This document shows, piece after piece, positions 13,501 through 49,396 of a stretch of 64,000 nucleotides of DNA. The notes beneath the pieces are model-generated. The model saw only the letters and a list, made by a program, of their open reading frames with translations, was not told where the DNA came from and made no database searches. The first letter of the stretch is position 1. Each line of letters begins with the position of its first letter. Source of the stretch: Gyrodactylus bullatarudis (taxonomy: Eukaryota > Platyhelminthes > Monogenea > Gyrodactylidea > Gyrodactylidae). A program made the position numbers and the translations under genes. The DNA lies in contig SSNU01000196.1 in the NCBI GenBank assembly GCA_012064415.1, forward strand, positions 140,796 through 204,795, read 5' to 3'.

Positions 13501-13648
13501 TGATTTTGGAGGTTGCTGACTAGAAGTCATGCTAGTTTAAAGAACGAACGAAAGTTGATTGGTGAGTAAAGCTTTATTTTCGTCGGTTCTCTTCGGACCA
13601 AACACCGACTTAATATATTTATATATATGAAAAAATTAAAGAACATAA

Positions 13649-13701
13649 TATATAAATATATTAAGTCGGTGTTTGGTCCGAAGAGAACCGACGAAAATAA
13701 A
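13649..13701 (+). promoter_or_regulatory. TATA-like box and AATAAA in LTR-like arm
   Basis: TATATAAATATA at 13649-13660 and AATAAA at 13696-13701 bracket the hammerhead-like core, the same order as at 14.0, 44.9 and 57.6 kb. Confidence 0.4.
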
Positions 13702-13715
13702 GCTTTACTCACCAA
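13673..13715 (+). ncRNA. hammerhead-like fold, copy C (right arm)
   Basis: Helix I UUGGU (13673-13677) pairs with ACCAA (13711-13715). The core reads CCGAAGA (13678-13684), so the usual U4 is C. The connector GAACCGAC (13685-13692) gives only a G-C closing pair. GAAA is at 13693-13696. Helix III is 13696-13700 with 13705-13709 (one A/C mismatch, loop AGCU), followed by C at the expected cleavage position 13710. A mirror copy lies on the minus strand at 13559-13601. The U4 change makes activity doubtful. Confidence 0.45.
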
Positions 13716-13989
13716 TCAACTTTCGTTCGTTCTTTAAACTAGCATGACTTCTAGTCAGCAACCTCCAAATATTTTCGAGGAAATCAGGCAACTTATGTCC
13801 GATGAAAATGATTTTGTTTATTATTTTAACCCAACTATTTTATCGTCCAGACCTTTTTAAATTAATGAATAATAATCCTTAAATAAAGAGCAAGTTGACA
13901 TAAAGATGAGAATTTATTATTTTTACAAAAAACTATATATTTTCCTTCTGATTTGAATTCATGAGGAATATTAGAGAGCAAGTAAATAA

Positions 13990-14031
13990 TAAGTGATAAA
14001 CATTTTATTTCGTCGGGTCTCATCAGACTTA
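13990..14031 (-). ncRNA. hammerhead-ribozyme-like fold, copy D (best match)
   Basis: Minus strand, 42 nt. Helix I UAAGU (14031-14027) pairs with ACUUA (13994-13990). The core CUGAUGA (14026-14020) is canonical. The connector GACCCGAC (14019-14012) forms only a G-C pair plus mismatches, so helix II is minimal. GAAA is at 14011-14008. Helix III AUAAA (14008-14004) pairs with UUUAU (14000-13996), loop AUG. C at 13995 is the expected cleavage nucleotide after AU. All core positions of a type I hammerhead, including A15.1-U16.1, are present. It lies inside an LTR-like promoter fragment. Confidence 0.55.
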
Positions 14032-14084
14032 ACCCCGGGCTTTTATACTTTAACAATGCAAAAAAATTTCTGCTCTTCCATTGG
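13990..14084 (-). promoter_or_regulatory. LTR-like promoter fragment (CCAAT, TATA, AATAAA)
   Basis: On the minus strand CCAAT is at 14084-14080, TATAAAAG at 14047-14040, then the hammerhead-like fold and AATAAA at 14009-14004. The order and spacing match those at 44.8 and 57.5 kb. No coding region is attached, so this is likely a solo or truncated terminal repeat. Confidence 0.5.
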
Positions 14085-20519: not shown

Positions 20520-21198
20520 GATATGGTTCAATAGAAAATCTAGTGTCTGAAGGTAAATCATTAATCATCTGGCAGTTATTGCTTAATGTAGATAAGAGCA
20601 GAGAAGAGACTTAGAATAATCGAGGTTAGATCTGATGTGCGACATGACTAATTTAAGATCAGTCAGGTTTTCACAATCAGATAATTTGTATTTTGAGAAT
20701 ATTTTATTGAAAGAATTCAACAAAAAATTAGGATTAGAAAAATTGCATTTCTAAGAGAATAATTACTATTCACTGTAGAATAAGATTCAGTGAATTTTTT
20801 AACTAAAAATGCATATATCCGAACCCAGAGCGGATGAAGCCCTGAGACAGTAATGAGTGCATTGTAAGAGTCTAAATGGGGAAAAATTGAATGAAGAAAT
20901 CTATATTGGATACGTTCAATAGATAGACATTGGGAATTATTTAAATCAGGCAAGAGGGGGAAAGTGTAGTCGAAAAGCGGAAAGACCAGTGATTTGTAAG
21001 CTTTTAGTCTTACTTCACTGGACAAGGAGAATTTTTTAATAGAGTAAATAAGTGAATTTATTCTAGATAAGTTTGACAATGGGTCTAATTTTAAATTTGA
21101 TGTTATACTGAAACCGAGGTCAGAAGTAAAGTAAAATGTATAGCTACTATAAGTTTCCGAGAATTTTTTCACCAAGAATGCATATCTGCGAACCCAGA
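20520..21198 (-). mobile_element. nested LINE copies
   Basis: The minus frame 21175-20717 starts with a scrap of one copy (KKFSETYSSYTFYF; just upstream LWVRRYAFLV) and then enters another copy at TSDLGFSITSNLKLDPLSNL, continuing through SGLHPLWVRIYAFLVKKF and NYSLRNA. The reading then shifts and ends LSDCENLTDLKLVMSHIRSN and DYSKSLL near 20590. Two insertions are therefore fused here. Confidence 0.8.
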
Positions 21199-21735
21199 GT
21201 GATTTTTTTTTTGTTTGAAATAAGTTCTGTATTTATTTAAAGTGAAATTCAATATAAAATATGTACAAAGATAAATAAAGTTTAAATACATTGTGAATCT
21301 CGTTGTAGTCTGTAAAATAAAATAATGAATAATTAAAATCTTGGAGTCTTTGTAAATAAGTGTGATAAATTGAATCTGAAAATTTAAATCGAAAATTATT
21401 CTGGTGGCAACTCAATAATGAAGATCTGGATATAAGAGTGTTTTGGTATAGTCAATTTTAGATCTTATGTGGGTCATGATGCATTTAATTGAATATAGAT
21501 TTGTGCAATTTGATAAGTCATATTTTGAATTTAGATAGTTGTAAAAGGCAAGAAGATAATTATTTTTAAACGATGCATTTCTCAGGTTATAGGATTGTTC
21601 TATTTTAATCGAATGCTCGGTGAATTGTTTAACAATAAAAGCATATCTGCGGACCCATAATGGATTAAGACCCGACGATGAGATGCGGGCATTGTAAGAG
21701 TTTAAGTCAGGGAAAATTGCTTGAAGCCCCGAGAC
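21199..21735 (-). mobile_element. LINE copy inserted into an older LINE
   Basis: The 3' end TTTTTTTTTGTTTGAAATAAG lies at about 21205. The minus frame encodes AIFPDLNSYNARISSSGLNP through HIRSKIDYTKTLLYPDLHY (ending 21412). At both edges the older copy resumes (NALISVSGL at 21759-21735; LWVRRYAFLV below 21199), so the insertion is dated relative to its host. Confidence 0.8.
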
Positions 21736-21789
21736 GGAGATAAGTGCATTAATCTTCATTAACCAATTGATTTTCGAATTTCTTGCAGA

Positions 21790-21999
21790 CTCTAGTTCTC
21801 AGGCTCTACTATTGCTCAAATTTCTACAACTCGAGAGCCTTTACCTTATTTTATGACTTAACATTTTAACATTTCATAATTGTACTGATCAATTTATCCA
21901 TTTTAATTATTGTATTTTATTTCTATTTGTACAAGCAGATTTCGTTATAATTTGTATTTATATTTTCAATTCAATATAAGATTTTTTTTCTAACAAAAA
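21790..21999 (+). mobile_element. LINE 3' UTR copy
   Basis: From GCTCAAATTTCTACAACTCG to TTTTTTTTCTAACAAAAAAA. The same UTR recurs at 29350-29521 and 32888-33066, defining a subfamily. Confidence 0.75.
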
Positions 22000-23355
22000 A
22001 AATAAGAGTCGATGATTTGCAGAATTTTATGATTTTACAAAAATCTCAATATTTTGAGAAACTTGAATTCGTTTTTTCGAATTGGCGCCATTTTTAAACT
22101 TTGAGGTAAAGCTTTTTTTAATTTCAGAGTCAGAAAGTGATAAAAAGTCGAAATTTCATGATACCCATTCGATCTCCTGCTTTTTCAACCAATTTATAAA
22201 TCTGCTATGGACTTTTACCAATCAATACCGGTGAATATCTAATCATTTAGAGCCTCAAAAAATTATACCTAAAAATAATTTTTCAAGATTTATTTTTTGA
22301 TTCTAAGGTATTATCTTAATACTTTATCACGAATTTATAATCTTAAATATGAACTACCTACCAGTAAACCTGATAAAAATTCGAAAAACCATAATAATGT
22401 TGAAATTAAACTAAAAAATCGCGATAATCTCAAAAATATTATCTTCGAGATTACATTCGAGCTTAGCAAATTCTTACACGATGAAAATCAGCTCTATACC
22501 TCAAAAAACGAGGATTGAGTTCATTGATATAAATGAAATACAATGCTATAATAAAGTATTATTTTAATACCTTTAAGACCTTATAACTTTGAACCCTGAT
22601 GATATAGCATTTATAGTTCGTGAATCAATATATTTGCCAATGAATAGAAAATGCAAAGAAAAAAATTTTCTCACGGGAATGTTGCTTCTTTTCTACGTTC
22701 ATATCTTAATTTCAATCAAGAAATTTATTCTTCATCCCGAGAAGGAATCATGAACGAATCTCAAATTCTTTAAAGTCTCCTAATGAAATTCTGTCAATCA
22801 CATATGAAGAAATGTTGATTGATTCTGAAAAGTCAATAATAATGTTATAGCAACAAAAACAGCAATAGTACAATTTCCGTTTTTCAGTTAGAGGACACAC
22901 ACACGTTTTCTTTACTTCCTGTTTCGAGGGGTTGAATGCAAAAGTAAAAGCAAATATTTTTTTACTTGAATTAATTCACTTACAGGGAGGTTGTTCTTTG
23001 ATCTATATTTACGTTTATCTGGCGTTCGGATTTAAAAAAAAATGGCGCAACAATAAATTGACCATAAAACAATCTCTGATGAGACGAGAAAAATTTTAAA
23101 AATGAAAAAAACACATTTTTGGTAGTCATATTTATATTTTTATTCATCTATTTTCAAGAAGTTTGATAAATGCTGAACAATGTGACTACTGGTGAAAAAT
23201 ATGGATTTTTTGTTAAACAAAGCGGATTTTCGAACGTTTATGAAAAAATTCGTTCATTTTCAAAACATTCCAATAAGGTAGAAATAGTCTATCGAAAAAA
23301 ATTTAATTTGAAAATAGAATATCCCAAAATAAAGATTATCATCACTTGATATCTG
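22000..23355. other. anonymous AT-rich stretch
   Basis: The first 60 bp resemble foldback family A (TTTTACAAAAATCTCAATAT). The plus frame 22297-22518 is polar and lysine/asparagine-rich with no motif; I do not support it as a gene. Confidence 0.3.
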
Positions 23356-23364
23356 TCCATGTTA

Positions 23365-24174
23365 AACTATAGAGTGTTCCCATTGGGTCTCCCTACAACC
23401 CTCCTTGAATCGCTTCTACTTCCTGGAGAAATTGTCTCCTTTACTCCTGATCTAGGTTTCGGTATAAATCCCAAACTCAAATTAAATCCTTACTCAAATT
23501 TACCTAAAATTAATTCTATGATTTTCGCTATACTCAAATTCTCAAAATCACTAATCCTGAGAACTAAGGCTTATATATCATTAGTGCTCCCACACTTTGA
23601 TTATATTTCTCCCCTCCTCACAAATTTAACGAATGAACAAGCTCTAAATATCGAGAGAATCCAAAGTAGATTCCTATACGCACTTTACCCTAATTTGGAT
23701 TCCTACAATGCTCGGATCTTGGATTCCGGTCTAAATCCACTATGGATTCGCCGTTTTGCCTTCATCATTAAAAAATTCACTAAAACATCAGTTAAAATCG
23801 AAAGAAATTATAATTTAAGAAACATCTCTTATGAAAATAATTTCGTCCTTTCCACTTATAACATCCTGCATGATAGATATGATTTATCTAATTGTGAGAA
23901 CCTCTACTCCATAAAAATTATAATTATTATTATAGAACATATAAGATCAAAAATTGATTACTCTTATACTCTTCTCTATCCTGATCTCCATAAGTAATAG
24001 TTACCAGATTGATTTCGTTAAAATTTTTCAGATTTATTAATCGCCAATTTATAGATTTTTCAGAAACAAGATTTTATTTATGACCTTTATACAAACCGAC
24101 AGATTTCATGAATATTGTACAAATTATTTTTAAATTCTACATCTTTTTTTTCTATTATTCATTCAATAAAGAAA
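23365..24174 (+). mobile_element. LINE copy, long C-terminal ORF intact
   Basis: An uninterrupted frame to 23997: LGLPTTLLESLLLPGEIVS, DSGLNPLWIRRFAFIIKKF, YNLRNIS and HIRSKIDYSYTLLYPDLHK. An ATT/TTA microsatellite has expanded inside it (six isoleucines, about 23920-23935). The 3' UTR matches 28110-28320. The last bases are replaced by a minus-strand SINE. Confidence 0.88.
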
Positions 24175-24312
24175 TTTTTTTTTTGAAATTGAAACATTTA
24201 TATTTATTCATAGATATGATTTGTACAAATAAGGGAACAGGGAAAGAGTGTTCAATGTTCCCGGTGTGGGAGGGTATGAACCTAGGTCCGAATGAGAGGT
24301 GAGAGAGATACA
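24175..24312 (-). mobile_element. tRNA-derived SINE, copy 2
   Basis: Minus strand. The poly(A) tail is at 24184-24175, the body GTTCCCTTATTTGTACAAAT matches copy 1, and the B box is GGTTCATACCC at 24282-24272. The tRNA head is truncated, with no A box. It sits at the 3' end of a LINE copy. Confidence 0.8.
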
Positions 24313-24319
24313 CACCGGC

Positions 24320-25180
24320 AAGAAAAAATAGAGTGTGTTGATGCAGATTTTATGGGAAAACAAAATAGCCTGCTATCATAGTAATAAAGATCGAATTTCT
24401 TTTTTTCTAACAAGAAACTTAATTCTTTTAAATTGTTCTTTTACGCTATCGCTTTGCAAATAATAATAATAATTTCTTTTGTTTGTTTTTTTTCGTTCGG
24501 CCATGAAAATTTTATATAGTTTATTCAGTACACGTTGTTTACCAAGGGGCATTTCGACACCCTAACAACATAAAATTAGTCAGTCGGCTCGAATTGATTA
24601 AAATCTTGGTTAAGAAGTTTATCTTTGAATAAATTTAAGAATTTATGAAAAAGACACAATAAAAGGGAAAGTGAGACCTGTTGGAATTTAAGAAATAATC
24701 AGTTTTTATAATATTCATTAGTCAAAAACAATGCTCAAAGATATAATTTCAATTCACGTATTGTTTTCTTTTTAAAAAGTACTTTCTCCAAGTTATTCAA
24801 CGATTCACTTTAATCTTGTACAACATAATTGTCAGAATTGATAATATCTCAAAAACATTTTGTTATAATTGTAGTGTTCATTATTATCCCCAAAGGATCA
24901 TTTTAGATCCTTACTCTAATTATAGATTATCAGACAATTAACCTAATTATACTTAATATTGTACACTAAAAATAGATTATGGGACTACAAATGTAATCAA
25001 GATAAACCATTTGCAATGTGCGGGACTATAATTACTTAATTATCACTTTTTAACACCTATAATAAAGAGCCAATTCCAAAGTCAAACCCATCTGTATAGA
25101 ACTAATGAATCAGATGAAAAAGTTAATTATAATTACCCTATATCAGTAAAATTATAACCATAATTGACCTGATGTTTTTT
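24320..25180. other. anonymous AT-rich stretch
   Basis: No exon or repeat family member recognised. A short TAA run lies at 24463-24477. Confidence 0.3.
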
Positions 25181-25182
25181 TC

Positions 25183-25398
25183 TTGACCCTTTCGGTGCCG
25201 ATGTCCATTTTCCAATTTTTTTGAACCTTCATAACTCTACCAGTTTGATAGGTTTCTGGATCAATTGAAGTTTAAATTGAAGCCCACATAATGTGAACTT
25301 GCATTAGTAATATTTTTTGCCAGATATCTTGGTATCTTCATAGCTAAATTTTGGTTTTTATAAAAATTGTGAAATAGTCTCGGCCCCGAAAGGGTTAA
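25183..25398. mobile_element. piggyBac-like MITE, complete
   Basis: The 208-bp element (25187-25394) has 15-bp ends CCCTTTCGGTGCCGA and TCGGCCCCGAAAGGG (14 of 15 complementary). It is flanked by TTAA (25395-25398) and TTGA (25183-25186), which fits a once-duplicated TTAA. TTAA targeting with CCCTTT ends is typical of piggyBac-derived MITEs. It has no coding capacity. Confidence 0.8.
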
Positions 25399-25400
25399 GG

Positions 25401-26458
25401 GAACAGGCAAAGATTGTTCAATAACTATTATTGAATCAATTGACTCGGGTGTTCCCCAAGGTTCAATCATTGGCCCTCTTCTCTTTAATATTTGCTTCGC
25501 TGATATTCAGCTCCCGGAGAACATTGAGGGTGTTCTCCTTAAATTTGCTGACGATTTCAAATTCGTCTTCAAGGTGAAAAATTCCCTTGATATTTTAAAA
25601 ATTAATCACAACTTCTGTCTTCTTAAAGGTTCCCTCGAGGCCATGGGGCTCTATATAAATAGAGATAAATGTAAATTATTACTCCCATGCGGTCTCCCTG
25701 CAACCCTCTCGGAATCTCTTCTACTTCCTGGAGAAATTGTCTCCTTAACTTTGGACCTAGGTTTCAGTATCTCGGATGGTCTTAAAATTGATCCTCTCTC
25801 TAATCTACCTAAAATAAAAACAACAATCTTTTCAATCTTAAAATTCTCCAAGTCAATCAATTTAAGGCTCAAGGCTTTCAAAGCTTTAGTTTTAAATAAC
25901 CTTGATTATATCTCTCCTCTTGTTCCCTCATTAACTTTTAAAAAATCTCTAGAAATAGAGCATATTCAATCTAGATTCTTATATTTTCTATATCCAGATC
26001 TAGATTCTTACAATTCTCGTATCTTGATCTCTGGGCTTAACCCTCTATGGGTAAGAAGATATGCCATTATAGTTAAGACATTTGTTAAATCTGCAAATTT
26101 ATTTGAGAATTCTTATAATCTTAGAAATTCATCATTTTCTAATCATTATCTTCTCTCTGTTTACAATATGATCGATAAAAAATATAAAATATCTGATTGT
26201 AAAGATCTAACTAACATTAAAACTATAATGTATCACATAAGGTCTAAACTTGATTACTCTAAAAGTCTACTTTATGTTAATCTTCACTGAACCCAGAATG
26301 ATGACTGAATTCCTGTGAAGGCTTATTTATTTATTTATCTATTCTTTTAAACCTATATATGTATATATTTCTAACCTTATATATATTCAATTGTATCATT
26401 TTTTTTTCTTACTTGTACATATTGCCTATATTTTCAATAAACTGATTTCTAACAAAAA
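25401..26458 (+). mobile_element. best-preserved LINE copy (partial reverse transcriptase)
   Basis: A single open frame from about 25403 to the stop at 26288-26290. It shows SGVPQGSIIGPLLFNICFAD (RT motif 4), the catalytic box as FADD at 25544-25555 (Y to F), NRDKCKLLLPCGLPATLSES, the thumb-like LKAFKALVLNNLDYISPLVP, IEHIQSRFLYFLYPDLDSYN, SGLNPLWVRRYAIIVKTF and HIRSKLDYSKSLL. The 3' UTR ends TTTCTAACAAAAAAA at about 26445-26459. The 5' half (endonuclease, RT fingers) is missing. The domain order suggests the Jockey/CR1 side of non-LTR elements; the exact clade is not assigned. Confidence 0.9.
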
Positions 26459-32085: not shown

Positions 32086-32214
32086 TCAATGATTTTGGAG
32101 TTGTAAAATGAATCATGAAGACTAGGGTTTGCAAGAAATTCGAAAATCATCTGGTTAATGAAGAAAAGAATAAAGCCAAGACTTAAAGTAATCGATTTTA
32201 TTTTTGAATTTCTC

Positions 32215-33066
32215 AGATAATAATTATCTACTTCCTGGAGAATTTGTCTCCTTAACTTCGGATCTAGGTTTCAGTATTTCAGATGGTCTTAAAATAAATC
32301 CTCTTTCGAAATTATCTAAAATCAATACAGCTATATTTTCAATATTAAAATTCTCTAAGTCGTCCTTTTTGAGACTCAAAGCGTATAAAGCTTTTGTTCT
32401 GAATAACCTTGACTACATTACCCCCCTGGTTCCTATGTTATCTAACGAGAAATCTCTCGAGATTGAACACATTCAATCTAGGTTTTTATATTTTTTATAC
32501 CCTGACCTTGAATCCTACAATGCTCGTATCTTGTTCTCAGGTCTTAACCCCCTTTGGATTCGAAGATACGCCATTCTTGTTAAAAATTTTATCAAGTCAG
32601 CTAAAATGTCTGAAAACTCCTACAACCTAAGAAATCCATCTTATTCGAAACATTATTTACTATCAGCTTACACCATGATAGAAAATAAATACAAAATATC
32701 TGAATGTAGTGACCCTACTAATATTAAAGTTGCTATGTCACATATAAGATCTAAATTAGACTATTCTAAGAGTCTTCTTTACTCCTATCAACATTAAGGT
32801 TCCCAAAATGATCAGGGAATTTACTCGAAAGGCTTTTTATTTGTTTATTTTCAATTTTTATATTTGCACCATGATTTTATTATCAATTTAATTCAATTGC
32901 TCAAATTTCTACAACTCGAGAGCTTTTACATTATTTTATAACTTGACATTTTATCATTTTATAATTGTACAGATCAATCTATCCATTTTATTTCTATTTA
33001 TACAAGCAGATTTCGTTATAATTTTTATTTATATTCTCAATTCAATATAAGATTTTCTTCTAACAA
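32215..33066 (+). mobile_element. LINE copy, 5'-truncated, with second 3' UTR
   Basis: Open from about 32220 to the stop at 32795-32797: LLPGEFVSLTSDLGFSISDG, NNLDYITPLVP, IEHIQSRFLYFLYPDLESYN, SGLNPLWIRRYAILVKNF, HIRSKLDYSKSLLY. It is a close relative of 25401-26458. From about 32888 the 3' UTR switches to the other subfamily type (CTACAACTCGAGAGC) and ends TTCTAACAAAC, so a second insertion or a recombinant is likely. Confidence 0.88.
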
Positions 33067-34842: not shown

Positions 34843-34877
34843 CTTTGTGGATGATTTATTGTTAAAAATATTTTGCC

Positions 34878-37800
34878 ATGTTACACGAAGCACCTTGCCC
34901 TTTGATGACTCTATCTAATCACCATGGCAGTTCAACTGGTAGTCCCAATTCAACTCGAGCCAGCAGTATTTCATATGAACTCTCTGAGGATTTACGTGCC
35001 AAGGAAATTGAATTTATGGAACGTTGTTATGGTGGACGTATCAAGGCACATAGAGCTGCTAGAATCATTCAGACAGCCTATCGGAATTATCGCATTAATA
35101 AGGATTATTGTAGACTGAGAAATGAACAGCGCATGAGCAGACGTATGGATTCTATCTACTGTGATTCGACACCTAAACAAGACAGAATAACCCCCATTGA
35201 ACATGAGAAACAACCTATTAGCAGAAATATCAACAGTTATGACGATATTGTCATCGATAAAGCCTACAATGATTGGGACGAAGAGATCAAAAAATTGAAC
35301 ATCAACAGAGATTCCCTTGAATCACAGAATGACACTCCAAATTCCTCAATTTCCTCGTCAAATCTTGGCGAATCAATAAAATCAAAGGACTTGGATCACA
35401 GTGATGTTGTCACTTCGCCAGGGAAGAGCAGTGGATTTGTCTCCAACAATTCACCCGACACTACCGGCAGTTTCAGTTTGAATGACTCCTTTGAAAATGC
35501 TGATTGTAAGAACATTCAGTCTGCAGATTATGAATTCAACTTTTCACCAATTCACGGAAATACCTCCAACTTGGCTTATGCCTGCAAGGGTCAAACTGAC
35601 AATTATCAGCGCCAAAAACGAATTCTTTACAGTCCTCAGAGAATAACCGCTATCCCTGTTAACACGTGCAGTCCACATTTTCAGTTCTCCCCAACGAACC
35701 AGAATCATGGATTAGTTTATATCTCCCCAACCAAAAGTGGCCAATTCGTGACAATACCCAGTCATTCTAGTCATCACCAATATCCTATTCACAACAAGCC
35801 CATAAACTTTATTGATGGTAATAACATTGTCCTATCAAAGGCCCAGAGTGAAAATCAAAATCGCAAAAGAAAACGTCTCTATCGAATTGGATTAAATATT
35901 TTCAACAAGTATGTTTTAATCCCTTGATGTTCTCACATGTCTTTTGATGTGAGATTAGGCATGTCTCTTTTTCTTTCTTGACATGCAATCCCCTCTGTCT
36001 ATCTATCCCAAATGAATCTCATTATTATTAATAACCCCACTCTCAATTTAGGTCCCCAGTCAAGGGTATTGAATTTCTCACAAAGTCTAATTTCATTGAA
36101 TCCTCCCCCAATGCAATAGCCAAATTTCTCCTGACAAGAAGAGGACTGAGTCGTACAGCTATTGGTGACTATCTTGGCAATTCCCAGGATAAAATGGCTG
36201 CAACAGTTACAAGGTAATAAATCTTTAAATTTACAATTCAATTTGAAACAATTTAATGGTTCTTCTTCTCATTTTCCAATAGATATTTCATTGGCAGTAT
36301 AGATTTTCGGGGGAAGGAACTCGACCAGGCGTTGCGTATTATGCTGAGTTATTTCAGAACACCTGTAAGTACATTAATTTACCCATTTATCTTTCTCCTT
36401 GTTCTTGTAAATATCATGAAAAGACTAATTACATTCTTCCTTAATAGGGTGAATCACAAAAAATACAACACTTGCTAACTGAATTTCAAACAGCCTACAT
36501 TCAACAGAATCCAGAACTATTTCGTGCCCGATTCAGGACAGAAGATATGGTCATGGTAATCTCTTATGCCATAGTAATGCTCCATACAGACATGTACAAT
36601 ACCAAGATACGCCAACAAGACCGTATGACCAAAGAACAGTTTATTAAAAACCTACGTGGATGTGATGGTGGTATGTTTTAATATTAGGCTTTTGTTTTAA
36701 AATATAGAATTTAAAGAAGAAAATACAACAGGCTATTTTCTTCTCTTTATAATAATAATAATTTCTGCCCAAGCTCTTGTTGCCATGTGAGATTATTTGG
36801 AGTGTGCAGAGGACCTACGTCCCTTCAGCGTATTCTGCCCTGTTGCCAGAATACACACAGTTCTACTCAATAGAGAAATATAGCATAAATATTCACATTA
36901 ATATTAATCCGACTCATACCATATGCATTGAAAATAATTCTTGAGTACTTTTATTCCCATTTCTCACATATCCAAAATATATTTATTTATTTTTCTCTCT
37001 CAGGTGAAGATGTAAATAATGAATTCCTCAGTGGTGTCTTTGACAGAATACAAGCTGAAGAGATGAAAGTACAATCAGACCACACAGACTTAGTTAGACG
37101 CATTGAATCCAATCTAACCGGACCTTTACGACCGAGAACGTTGGCTGTACCCCAACGTAGACTAGTTTGTTATTGTAGTCTATTTGAGGTTAGTTTTTCA
37201 ATCAAATTATTTTTTTATTTGATTTAAATATTTTTTTCACAACAGTCAAATTAATCATCCTTTTTAATTCAATTATTAGGTCATGGATAAAAATAAACGT
37301 GAAAAGTTGGGTTCTCACGAACGTGACGTTTTTCTCTTTAATGACCTCCTGATAATAACAAAGCGTATCCAGAAAAAACGCAAAGACTACTGTATTTACT
37401 CTGTCAAATGGTGTGTGGACCTTATGGGCTTACAAGTTATCTCTTTTGAAAATCCAAATTACCCCAATGGTATCGAGCTAATAAATCGAGGATATATAAG
37501 TGCTGCTGCAGCCAATTCGAGCACTTCGATTACCTCAAACATATCAGCTAGTTCCTCGAGCAGCACTGCCAACAATAATTCTGCCGTCAATATTTGTCTG
37601 AATACAAAGACCCCAGCTGACAAGGCATCATTCCTATCAGATTTGAGAGAATGCATTCTTGAGGTAACAGAAATGGACCGAATTCGCATATCAGATGGCA
37701 TTAACAAGATGAATCTACCCCAGAGGTCTGTTTCGCAGACTAGCCAGCATAATGTTTTACCTGCCAAATATTCCTATCAAATGCCAGCTGGTGATGTCAT

Positions 37801-42306: not shown

Positions 42307-43560
42307 GTTTTATTCACCAAATGTACATTTCTTTATGGTTCATCAGTACTGGCACATAAATAATGATAAAAGTTTTAAATTCATTGAAAATAATAATTTA
42401 CAAATTTTGAAAGAAGTATAGTAAAAGTTGAAAAATATAAGAATATAATGTGAGCTGAAAAAACATCAAAACTCTTCAATAAATAGAAACAGTGAAGAGA
42501 AAAGTGAAAAAGCTCACATAGGCCAGGGTAATTGAAGATTATATGAGTAATTTTTCTGAACACACAGGTTTGGTTTAAAGTGATTGATGAAGAATTTCTC
42601 CTTCACCCACAAATCTGTGCTGTCATCACCCGCATTTTTATACAAAATTGAGAAATTAGAAATCGAAGCCTCATGATTTTCCTGTTTGATGTGTCTTGTC
42701 ACCGCTGTATCCTTCTTTAGATGATCATTTGACCTAGTTGACAATTTCCTAATCGTACGTCCTATATAAGAAGCTCCACAGTCGCATCGGAATTTGTAAA
42801 TCAAAAGAGTCTTTTCTTCAGGCTTTAGTAAATCCTTATGAATCAAACTGAATAATCTTTGGGTTTTAAATACAATTTTCAATTGTATATTATCATAATG
42901 TTGATCAATAAGATTAACCAGTCGTCTCCTTACATCATTACTGAAACCATCACCTTTAAAATTAAGTTTCATGAAGATGGTTGTCTTCTCTCCTTCATCT
43001 CTGTCGACCCTTTCATCTACATCATCAGACATATTGATGAATTTGTCTACAAATCTGTTGGGATAACCATTCTCATTTAAACGTAATTTTGACTCTTCTA
43101 TTTCTTTAGGCCATTCCTCTGGACTAGCAATCTTTCTTATCATCTTTCCTAGACCAATTACTAAGCCAACTTTATGAGGTAGAGGACTGAAACTGGTATA
43201 ATGAAGATATTTTCCATTATCAGTCTTCTTCTTGTAGACATTTCTTAGTATTGACCCATCCTCCTTCCTAGTTAGTTTGACATCTAAGAAGTTCAAACTC
43301 TCATTAGACTCTTTTTCCATAGTAAATTTAATATTAGGATGAAAAGAATTCATCTTTAAGAAAAAATCGTCTACTGAAACATTTGGCTTCATCAAAATAA
43401 AAGTGTCATCAACATATCTGATGCATAAATCAGTGAAAGTATTGATAGTATCAGACATTTTATGGAAGTTCATAAAAAAAAAGGTGCAAATAGGCTTGGT
43501 GTCGTTTCCGACGCCATTTATGGAGCGAGGGTTAATCAGCTTACGAATGGTACATTATTT
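42307..43560 (-). mobile_element. Penelope-like retroelement, 5'-truncated
   Basis: Contains the RT plus GIY-YIG frame described separately and about 200 nt of 3' sequence. On the minus strand CTGATGA (42346-42340) is followed by a 4-bp stem (ACCA 42339-42336 with TGGT 42319-42316) and GAATAAAA, a weak hammerhead-like order as known for Penelope-like elements. The 5' part of the reverse transcriptase is missing; homology may extend to about 43560 in the INGVGNDTKP frame. Confidence 0.75.
42514..43473 (-). CDS. Penelope-like reverse transcriptase C-part with GIY-YIG endonuclease
   Basis: An intact frame of 319 codons on the minus strand. Near the start is the catalytic box IRYVDDTFILMKP, then HPNIKFTMEKESNESLNFLD (the FLD palm motif typical of this class), and the linker PNRFVDKFIN. 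After it, LLIYKFRCDCGASYIGRTIR carries the YIG part of a GIY-YIG nuclease (the GIY equivalent reads ASY), followed by R-x-NDH and a C-terminal NHFKPNLCVQ block. RT followed by GIY-YIG is diagnostic of endonuclease-bearing Penelope-like elements. The RT fingers are lacking, so no full enzyme is made. The uninterrupted 960 bp suggests a fairly recent insertion. Confidence 0.9.
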   Translation of the reverse strand: MNFHKMSDTINTFTDLCIRYVDDTFILMKPNVSVDDFFLKMNSFHPNIKFTMEKESNESLNFLDVKLTRKEDGSILRNVYKKKTDNGKYLHYTSFSPLPHKVGLVIGLGKMIRKIASPEEWPKEIEESKLRLNENGYPNRFVDKFINMSDDVDERVDRDEGEKTTIFMKLNFKGDGFSNDVRRRLVNLIDQHYDNIQLKIVFKTQRLFSLIHKDLLKPEEKTLLIYKFRCDCGASYIGRTIRKLSTRSNDHLKKDTAVTRHIKQENHEASISNFSILYKNAGDDSTDLWVKEKFFINHFKPNLCVQKNYSYNLQLPWPM

Positions 43561-44812: not shown

Positions 44813-44945
44813 CCAATCAGATCCATTCTTTCTTAATGAAAATTTTTTGTATATAAATATGGCATGTAAAAGCTGATGAGTAAGCCACGAAATAAAGGGC
44901 TATTCTTTAACAAACTTGGCATCGCCTTTCTTCATGAATCTCACT
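44813..44945 (+). promoter_or_regulatory. LTR-like promoter fragment, copy A
   Basis: CCAAT 44813-44817, TATATAAAT 44850-44858, the hammerhead-like fold, AATAAA 44891-44896, then GGCATCGCCTTTCTTCAT. The whole order aligns with 57489-57615 (GGCCAA, CAATCAGAT, ATGGCATGTAAA, GGCATCGCCTTTCT), so the two are copies of one terminal-repeat family. Confidence 0.6.
44868..44917 (+). ncRNA. hammerhead-like fold, copy A (degenerate)
   Basis: Core CUGAUGA 44873-44879. Helix II is 2 bp (G44880-C44888, U44881-A44887; loop AAGCC). GAAA is at 44889-44892. Helix III UAAAG (44893-44897) pairs with CUUUA (44905-44909). The A15.1 partner is A instead of U, and three extra bases (AAA) separate C44911 from the helix I strand CUU (44915-44917), which pairs with AAG (44870-44872). 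Likely inactive. Confidence 0.35.
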
Positions 44946-48603: not shown

Positions 48604-49369
48604 TTAAACAAGTATACAATTTAATATTTTTTTTAAATGCGTATTGTTTTTTATAATGTTTTTTGACACAGAAAATGATCTTTCTACATCGGCCGTTGTA
48701 GGCTGCCAATTCTTGAGTTGGCTCAATTCGATAGGATTCAATTCTTCATGACCATTGCTCATTAAATTGCTGATTTCATTTTTGTTGAGTCTATCCATCA
48801 GATATTGCTTGATACCTACCGGATCGTCTCCAAAATTTAAATTTGATAGTTCTGTGTAGAAATTCAATAGTTTTGAGTCAGAATTTTGGATTCTCTTTAT
48901 AATTCCAATAATGTTTAAATAACATTGTGATATTTCTTCTAGTTCTTGATAAACTTGTAAATCAGATACAGCCTCTTTTGCTTTTTGGACTTTTAGACCT
49001 CCATCTGGAAGATTGAGAATGATTTGCTTGACTGAAACAAATTTATTGGCATAATACGTTATTGCACTTAGCCAATCGCCCCCCATCTTGTGACACATGG
49101 CTGCGGAGGTTGCCCAATTTCTTGAAAAAGAATTCGCCTCTTTTTGTTACGAACGACTAAGTCCTTAATATTGGCTATCAAAGCATTACTCCTAGGAAAT
49201 TTGTCTTTGATTCTTGCACAGCAATTGTGGAGTAAGTGAGCTAAATATGTAATGTGTGTCAGCCTTGGATAAAGTAAATGAATAATTTCTGATGAAGCAG
49301 TAAAATATGATGCAGAATCAGTTAACAATAACACAAAAGTAGTCTGGGATTAAGTCTGAAGAGACCTGG
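48604..49369 (-). pseudogene. hAT-superfamily transposase, C-terminal half, frameshifted
   Basis: Minus strand. FVLLLTDSASYFTASSEIIH carries a hAT catalytic Asp (TDSA). HITYLAHLLHNCCARIKDKF, LIANIKDLVVRNKKR and PPQPCVTRWG match the conserved hAT region with AH..H and TRWG. A frameshift at about 49085 changes frame, then DWLSAITYYANKFVSVKQII continues to TTADVERSFSVSKNIIKNNT, the C-terminal hAT dimerisation domain, ending at 48604. The N-terminal BED finger and first catalytic region are missing: just beyond 49345 the sequence switches to the LTR-like copy E. Confidence 0.85.
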
Positions 49370-49396
49370 CGAAATAAAAGCTTTATTGTTAGCTTG
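49350..49396 (+). ncRNA. hammerhead-like fold, copy E
   Basis: Core CUGAAGA 49356-49362, connector GACCUGGC 49363-49370, GAAA 49371-49374. Helix III AUAAA (49374-49378) pairs perfectly with UUUAU (49382-49386), loop AGC, followed by U at the cleavage position 49387. Helix I is weak: AAGU (49352-49355) with GUU at 49388-49390 (two wobbles) or with GCUU at 49392-49395 across a 4-nt bulge. The primary sequence is close to copy D (TTAAGTCTGA.GAGACC). No TATA box precedes it. Confidence 0.4.

Follow-up and report, generated by a model that had tools for sequence, protein, structure and literature searches.

The motif at 13990–14031 and its upstream strand

The window analysed here is a 64,000-nt stretch of contig SSNU01000196.1 from the monogenean flatworm Gyrodactylus bullatarudis, and it carries on the minus strand at 13990–14031 a motif with the core of a type I hammerhead ribozyme, together with fragments of the Penelope-like retroelements to which motifs of this kind are linked. 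Read from 14031 to 13990, the motif is UAAGU CUGAUGA G ACCCGA C GAA AUAAA AUG UUUAU C ACUUA. The core CUGAUGA occupies 14026–14020 with C3 at 14026, and GAAA lies at 14011–14008 with G12 at 14011 and A15.1 at 14008; C11.1 is at 14012, U16.1 at 13996 and C17 at 13995. Helix I is formed by 14031–14027 with 13994–13990, helix III by 14008–14004 with 14000–13996, and cleavage is predicted after C17 (13995). The type I signature of CUGANGA plus GAAA, an A15.1-U16.1 pair and an H at position 17 is present at 14026–13995, and every hammerhead position named in a preliminary description of this DNA (the core, two 5-bp helices, the A15.1-U16.1 pair and a C at the cleavage position) was recovered. The TATA box that the description had placed nearby is TATAAAA at 14041–14047 (minus strand), starting 21 nt ahead of C3, and the AATAAA that it had noted overlaps GAAA and helix III. 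The window has one site that unites the core with U16.1-H17 and with helices I and III, each ≥5 bp long; 100 dinucleotide shuffles gave one such site in total.

The two halves of the core enclose no stem II hairpin of 2 bp or more, and canonical stem II comes down to a single possible pair, G10.1-C11.1. The preliminary description had seen this pair correctly and had forecast that such a reduced helix II may abolish or slow cleavage. It had overlooked an upstream partner of the loop strand, as well as two more copies of the motif ~310–430 bases away. The upstream strand CGGG at 14034–14037 (minus strand) would supply helix II by pairing with CCCG at 14014–14017, which lies between CUGAUGAGA and the letters ACGAAA; the resulting pseudoknot has 4 bp (14037–14034 with 14017–14014), and the C at 14038 is left unpaired, facing A at 14013. 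Helix II is on this reading not merely reduced but replaced, and the forecast of lost cleavage does not follow.

A dispersed repeat with several families

The motif belongs to a repeat. With at most one mismatch, the core pattern of families F1 and F2 together was found at 1,122 places (547 + 575) in the 77-Mb assembly, and the reversed pattern at none. Exact variant classes gave 58, 56, 512 and 164 places, many of which differ by one letter from the first pattern and are hence already inside the 1,122. The copies sort into families F1, F2, F3 and F5 according to the sequence that surrounds the core: GUCGGU upstream with ACCGAC ahead of GAAA in F1, CCGGG with CCCGG in F2, and GGCAU with AUGCC in F3, while F5 is the family of the window's own Penelope open reading frame (ORF). 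Its upstream and helix I letters place the motif at 13990–14031 in F2. The 50-nt F3 motif occurs at 185 places with up to 3 mismatches, and F3 is probably young because at least 97 of these are identical (counted by eye, closest places first). In four F3 loci (L058, L093, L102 and L155) a second GGCAU, GGGCAU in L093, follows the motif and is a possible rival for the AUGCC strand. A small F4-like group (L048, L082, L106 and one L023 copy) has GCCGGYGUAA upstream and a helix I of UAGU/ACUA; in the copies examined, the pseudoknot of this group is worn.

The loop strand covaries with a strand upstream of helix I

In the copies examined, no stem II hairpin extends past one pair, and the strand ahead of GAAA complements an upstream strand that ends 1–2 nt ahead of helix I. 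The register is fixed: among 150 distinct copies, 49 had a 5/5 complement of the loop strand at offset −12 and 8 had it at −13, compared to a mean of 0.74 (maximum 5) at offsets −70 to −21 and of 0.70 (maximum 4) downstream. At least four of the five pairs can form in 100 of 142 copies, compared to a mean of 58.5 and a maximum of 71 over 200 shuffles of the upstream parts. Covariation was scored over ungapped columns in 89 of these 142 copies (76 random, 10 chosen as F3 or F4-like, and 3 from the window), a set in which altered loop strands are over-represented, which has to be held against the result; the pseudoknot scored 0.393 versus 0.192 ± 0.017 in shuffles (reached by 0 of 500), and slid registers scored 0.039–0.203. 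Cells changed on both sides numbered 77, versus 36.2 in shuffles.

Between families the letters change and the pairing is kept. Fully Watson-Crick versions in F1–F3 are UCGGU/ACCGA (17 copies), CCGGG/CCCGG (2) and GGCAU/AUGCC (3), and single copies carry UCGAU/AUCGA, UCUAU/AUAGA, CCUGA/UCAGG or CCAGG/CCUGG; CCUGA/UCAGG and UCUAU/AUAGA involve transversions on both strands. F5 has UUUAUG/CAUAAA, UUAAAG/CUUUAA and UUGAAG/CUUCAA, with six of six Watson-Crick pairs in 4 of 7 copies. The chance of a given version at a fixed place is ~0.0001–0.002. A plain type I hammerhead whose stem II has decayed, and whose upstream complementarity is incidental, would suit a genome that also holds canonical hammerheads with a 4-bp stem II; since the upstream strand covaries, and does so in one register, and since the canonical hammerheads that were fetched sit in a different repeat and not in this element end, this explanation is very improbable, and a canonical stem II hammerhead was ruled out for the motif.

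Helix I covaries between families as well. The preliminary description had made its reading depend on compensatory changes among copies, and for helix I these are present: its versions are UUGGU/ACCAA, UAAGU/ACUUA, AAGGU/ACCUU and UCACA/UGUGA. Four or more of the five pairs form in 64 of 107 copies, compared to a mean of 31.2 and a maximum of 46 in 1000 shuffles, a count that is lowered by some misplaced F2 copies (rows with CGCTT etc.), since H17 was placed by helix III alone; the remaining 35 of 142 copies were dropped for a helix III of fewer than four pairs or for a segment end. In many F1 and F2 copies helix III consists of AUAAA/UUUAU or AAUAAA/UUUAUU and carries a loop, and in F5 it is a loop-less palindrome, AUGUACAU or AUACGUAU. 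The proposal that helix III is made from AATAAA holds for many copies and not in general: when 149 distinct copies were sorted on letter five of the loop, 64 of the 75 F1-class copies had AATAAA, and the 54 F2-class copies comprise 25 with AATATA, 17 with AATAAA and 12 with neither.

Penelope-like elements carry the motif

On the minus strand at 42514–43554, the window holds a Penelope-like ORF fragment consisting of the end of a reverse transcriptase and a C-terminus that resembles GIY-YIG by eye. PF00078 (reverse transcriptase) and/or PF26215 was found in 119 of 120 relatives among the matches listed; Trichobilharzia, Sparganum and Spirometra supplied the best named ones. Searched by itself against Pfam and against solved structures, the fragment had no match over a cut-off. 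An F5 motif lies at 42315–42360 (minus strand), 170 nt past the C-terminus of this ORF, with CTGATGA from 42346, GAAA at 42331–42328, the palindrome ATGTACAT and a pseudoknot of TTTATG (42360–42355) with CATAAA (42337–42332). Its helix I is poor, and A and A stand where the 10.1/11.1 pair of stem II would be.

Usable loci are those with a C-terminus of this ORF family (≥55% identity) plus 300 nt beyond it; of 8 such loci, 4 have the F5 motif at +166 to +170 nt behind the ORF, and the locus in the window is one of them. Of the other four, L057, L051 and L008 hold mutated, deleted or cut remains, and L017 only the block ahead of the motif (by eye). For F1 and F2, Penelope C-termini on the same strand lie 322–929 nt upstream at 5 loci, and those on the opposite strand only at 1275–1398 nt, at 4 loci; the best match per locus and strand was counted, and the same-strand end in L008 is therefore not included. 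Penelope protein fragments around the motifs are similarly numerous on both strands (by eye), so that the linkage rests on the C-terminal ends and on F5. Comparing the 300 listed F1, F2 and F3 places with the Penelope ORF matches (minus the last two rows), both being partial lists, gave no same-strand match within 4 kb and two on the opposite strand; the ORF family used in that comparison has its own motif, F5.

Downstream of the motif, many copies have an ATG with a recurring ORF-start peptide (MTSSQQPPNIFEEIRQLMS and relatives). Shared sequence stops at ~+155 in nearly all loci, except where loci overlap and in two cases that extend to +241 and +259; a Pfam search with the frame downstream of the L007 motif found nothing. 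By analogy, this stop fits a reverse transcription that starts inside the early ORF, as it does in vitro for a Penelope element of the lizard Anolis (PMC11167929). The neighbouring Penelope ORFs keep a constant order and strand relative to the motif; its surroundings are therefore read as a Penelope pseudo-long terminal repeat (pLTR) and not as a long terminal repeat (LTR), and the ORFs explain the neighbourhood. The 'LTR-like promoter' proposed for this site is on this reading such a pLTR. A fold of the hammerhead type is well supported, and the preliminary interpretation is thus right in part.

I therefore read 13990–14031 as a diverged type I hammerhead-like ribozyme of a Penelope pLTR in which a pseudoknot forms stem II and for which cleavage is predicted from the sequence; the probability of this reading is put at roughly 70%.

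Evidence weighing against a pseudoknotted ribozyme

A number of results weigh against this reading. The Rfam scan of the window found no family at its gathering score, the hammerhead models included. The best hammerhead match at the motif was RAGATH-1 (RF03152) with 24.3 bits compared to a gathering score of 56.3 (E 0.02, 121 bases); across copies the RAGATH-1 scores ranged from 20.5 to 31.3 bits, all below 56.3, with 31.3 also being the best in the genome (58 candidates scored). Of four F3-type loci scanned with Rfam, three had no match even at an E of 1, and L155 had microRNA-type matches only. Covariance models hold no pseudoknots, which may explain why the copies score below the cut-offs. 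Folding of a single sequence of 63 nt did not favour the hammerhead (minimum free energy −6.6 kcal/mol, z +1.03, using a program without pseudoknots), and pseudoknot-free folding preferred other structures. A possible competitor of the upstream strand is helix I itself, given that UUGGU can pair with ACCGA: a complement at offset −5 is present in 28 of 150 copies.

The folding results also bear on a different explanation, an RNA switch in which pairing of the core with a UCGUUCGUUCU tract downstream masks the ribozyme until it is freed by a protein or a read-through context. The UCGUUCGUUCU pairing is used in the minimum free energy structures of both F1 copies that were folded, and the duplex of the F1 core with this tract averaged −10.93 compared to −8.24 kcal/mol for shuffled sequences (mean z −1.38, 50 copies), values that count against the ribozyme reading and for a switch. 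One Penelope hammerhead is moreover reported to be active only with protein (PMC11167929). The effect is weak elsewhere, with mean z of −0.65 in F2, −0.60 in F3 and −0.61 in the rest, and a switch is considered quite unlikely.

The covariation has weak points of its own. Pseudoknot pairs with changes on both sides numbered 5 versus 5.0 in shuffles (reached by 478 of 500), further pair types hardly stood out (20 versus 15.8, reached by 9 of 500), and only 68.9% of the pseudoknot cells in the 89 copies are paired, many copies being worn. At the one pseudoknot pair followed within F1, there were 10 and 11 single changes and no double change. Judged from these sequences, variation within families looks like neutral decay, with compensation occurring between families and subfamilies; the covariation comes from few families, and some of its versions are single copies. 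The window copy, with four pseudoknot pairs, may be slow or dead.

Finally, the copies span the predicted cleavage site and run on to ~+150, so that those insertions came from uncleaved RNA. The search picks up copies of uncut RNA, and copies made from cleaved RNA would escape it. Such an origin agrees with the suggestion that unprocessed RNA was the main substrate in vitro (PMC11167929).

A competing explanation is a relic, a hammerhead-derived fold that no longer cleaves and is kept only for its location in the pLTR promoter and close to the start of reverse transcription. In its favour, pairs or core letters are missing from the window copies, the within-family changes at the pair followed are uncompensated, the observed insertions derive from uncleaved RNA, and mutants of the lizard Penelope hammerhead are reported to insert in vitro unaffected (PMC11167929). 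A dead relic would not be expected to keep its pairing with different letters between families; nor would it be expected to be identical over 50 nt including the core at no fewer than 97 of 185 F3 places, though these may just be young. A relic is unlikely on balance, yet it is the likeliest of the competing explanations.

Proposed mechanism and the position of the promoter

For a pseudoknotted ribozyme, the proposed mechanism is as follows. The 3' strand of stem II, ahead of GAAA, would pair with the strand 1–2 nt 5' of helix I. An active hammerhead has its helices I and II next to each other, an arrangement that the pseudoknot would allow by tying the two together; the pseudoknot would replace both stem II and the loop-loop contact. 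All that is left of canonical stem II in F1–F3 is the G10.1-C11.1 pair, and even that is lost in the F5 copy of the window. RNA containing the whole segment would self-cleave 3' of H17 next to helix III (C17, 13995, in the window copy), so that transcripts containing a pLTR would be split close to the ORF start. Cleavage, its site and a role in processing read-through or tandem transcripts are predictions made from sequence.

TATA-like words are concentrated at −35 to −21 ahead of C3, with 128 occurrences there and no more than 4 in any other 5-nt bin among 149 distinct copies; F5 has no clear TATA box. Transcription from animal promoters starts ~30 nt past the TATA box, and starts would here fall at about −5 to +9, in or beside CUGANGA, so that locally started RNA would be without the upstream strands. 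The whole ribozyme may consequently exist only in RNA that is read through from an earlier copy.

TATA-like words 21–35 nt upstream would also suit DNA-level dyads, inverted repeats that serve as sites for promoter proteins and resemble a hammerhead by accident. Head-to-head pairs are indeed common: with 100 places listed per family, neighbours less than 2 kb apart were head to head in 8 cases for F1, 6 for F2 and 14 for F3, compared to 0, 1 and 1 tail to tail and 3, 0 and 0 in tandem. A protein site would, however, keep its letters, whereas helix I and the pseudoknot change letters, keep their pairing and abut the core at the places required of a hammerhead, and this explanation can hardly be credited.

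The most far-reaching version of the ribozyme reading is put forward only tentatively, and it is rather less likely to hold than to fail: a hammerhead without a stem II of its own, which takes this strand from 5' of helix I in an obligate pseudoknot outside the six block orders of PMC10085705, may have established itself in a single animal in two or more Penelope lineages that are distant from each other, and its promoter would start transcription within the core, which would leave read-through RNA as the only intact and cleaving form.

Relation to known hammerheads

Hammerheads of Penelope-like elements are described as common and of unknown role, and those described are minimal or protein-dependent (PMC7761336; PMC11167929). 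The type I hammerheads of Penelope elements (Cervera and de la Pena 2014; Lunse et al. 2017, as cited in PMC7761336 and PMC11167929) share with the present motif the core, an open helix I, a place in the pLTR by the start of the ORF and many dispersed copies, and F5 is also like them in having a palindromic, loop-less helix III, the kind said to need dimers. They differ in that a pseudoknot takes the place of stem II here, and helix III in F1 and F2 has a loop. RAGATH-1 (RF03152) is also among the closest known forms: its structure line has a 1-bp stem II, and by my own reading of the consensus its loop CUugG complements an upstream CcaAG. A 1-bp stem II and a loop strand complementary to upstream letters are both found in the present motif. 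The upstream strand of RAGATH-1 is, in contrast, held in a hairpin loop, whereas here it is single-stranded and separated from helix I by 1–2 nt, with its partner directly adjoining C11.1; no hairpin that would present the strand was seen between TATA and helix I in copies inspected by eye.

A pseudoknot that stands in for stem II has a precedent, to judge by analogy with the hammerhead of Perreault et al. (2011; PMC3088659), which is described as having a one-bp stem II with a 6-bp pseudoknot standing in for it, and as cleaving fast. That ribozyme is type II, comes from a metagenome and forms its pseudoknot between loop I and the 3' tail, whereas the motif described here has type I order and belongs to an animal retroelement. 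The permutations SGC, CSG and GCS of Eckert et al. (2023; PMC10085705) likewise join stems through pseudoknots and connect stem I to stem II by a short linker, but CUGAnGA there keeps an adjacent stem II strand (block C), which is here detached and 5' of helix I. Assignment to one of the six block orders given in that paper was ruled out for the same detachment. Searches of open-licence papers showed no description of a Penelope hammerhead with a pseudoknot replacing stem II. As Penelope pLTR hammerheads are already known, the form with a pseudoknot for stem II would be a new variant with predicted cleavage. Being family-wide and having covarying partner strands, it provides ribozymes that can be tested; it shows a route by which a helper pseudoknot could take over a catalytic stem, and a promoter start inside a ribozyme offers a model for an element that cuts read-through RNA only.

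Further copies and other features of the window

Searching for the core word together with CGACGAAA at up to 3 mismatches gave four sites in the window (0.04 expected): 13990–14031, the two arms of 13505–13769, and 49356. The segment 13505–13769 is a perfect 122-nt inverted repeat with a 21-nt spacer, equivalent to two pLTR ends head to head. Both arms are F1 copies of the element end, the left arm at 13505–13626 (minus strand, core 13578–13596) and the right arm at 13648–13769 (plus strand, core 13678–13696). The right arm has a pseudoknot of GTCGGT (13665–13670) with ACCGAC (13687–13692) and a helix I of 13673–13677 with 13711–13715; its core has a C at position 4 and is followed by an ATG with MTSSQQPPNIFEEIRQLMS. 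Matches to microRNA families within 13502–13776 look like self-folding of the inverted repeat and were dismissed. The site at 49356–49374 (plus strand) is a diverged F2 copy with 2 mismatches to the core pattern, and a diverged F3-type copy with GGCAT upstream of CTGATGAGTAAGCCACGAAA lies at 44861–44915 (plus strand).

The canonical type I hammerheads of this genome, found at loci L113–L134, have a GUCC/GGAC stem II, and several of them follow a tRNA-like B-box word such as GGTTCAAATCC; among the matches listed, 29 of 73 exceeded the Rfam Hammerhead_1 cut-off. Their repeat is presumably of a kind that recalls the Sm-alpha type of Schistosoma. Several related pieces of reverse-transcriptase-family ORFs lie at 20717–26290 and 32192–32797, with RVT_1 in 25373–26290. 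A Tc3-like transposase fragment occupies 2246–2833 on the minus strand, with helix-turn-helix matches under the Pfam cut-offs, and a host-like ORF with one distant relative lies in a GC-richer stretch at 34866–35927 on the plus strand.
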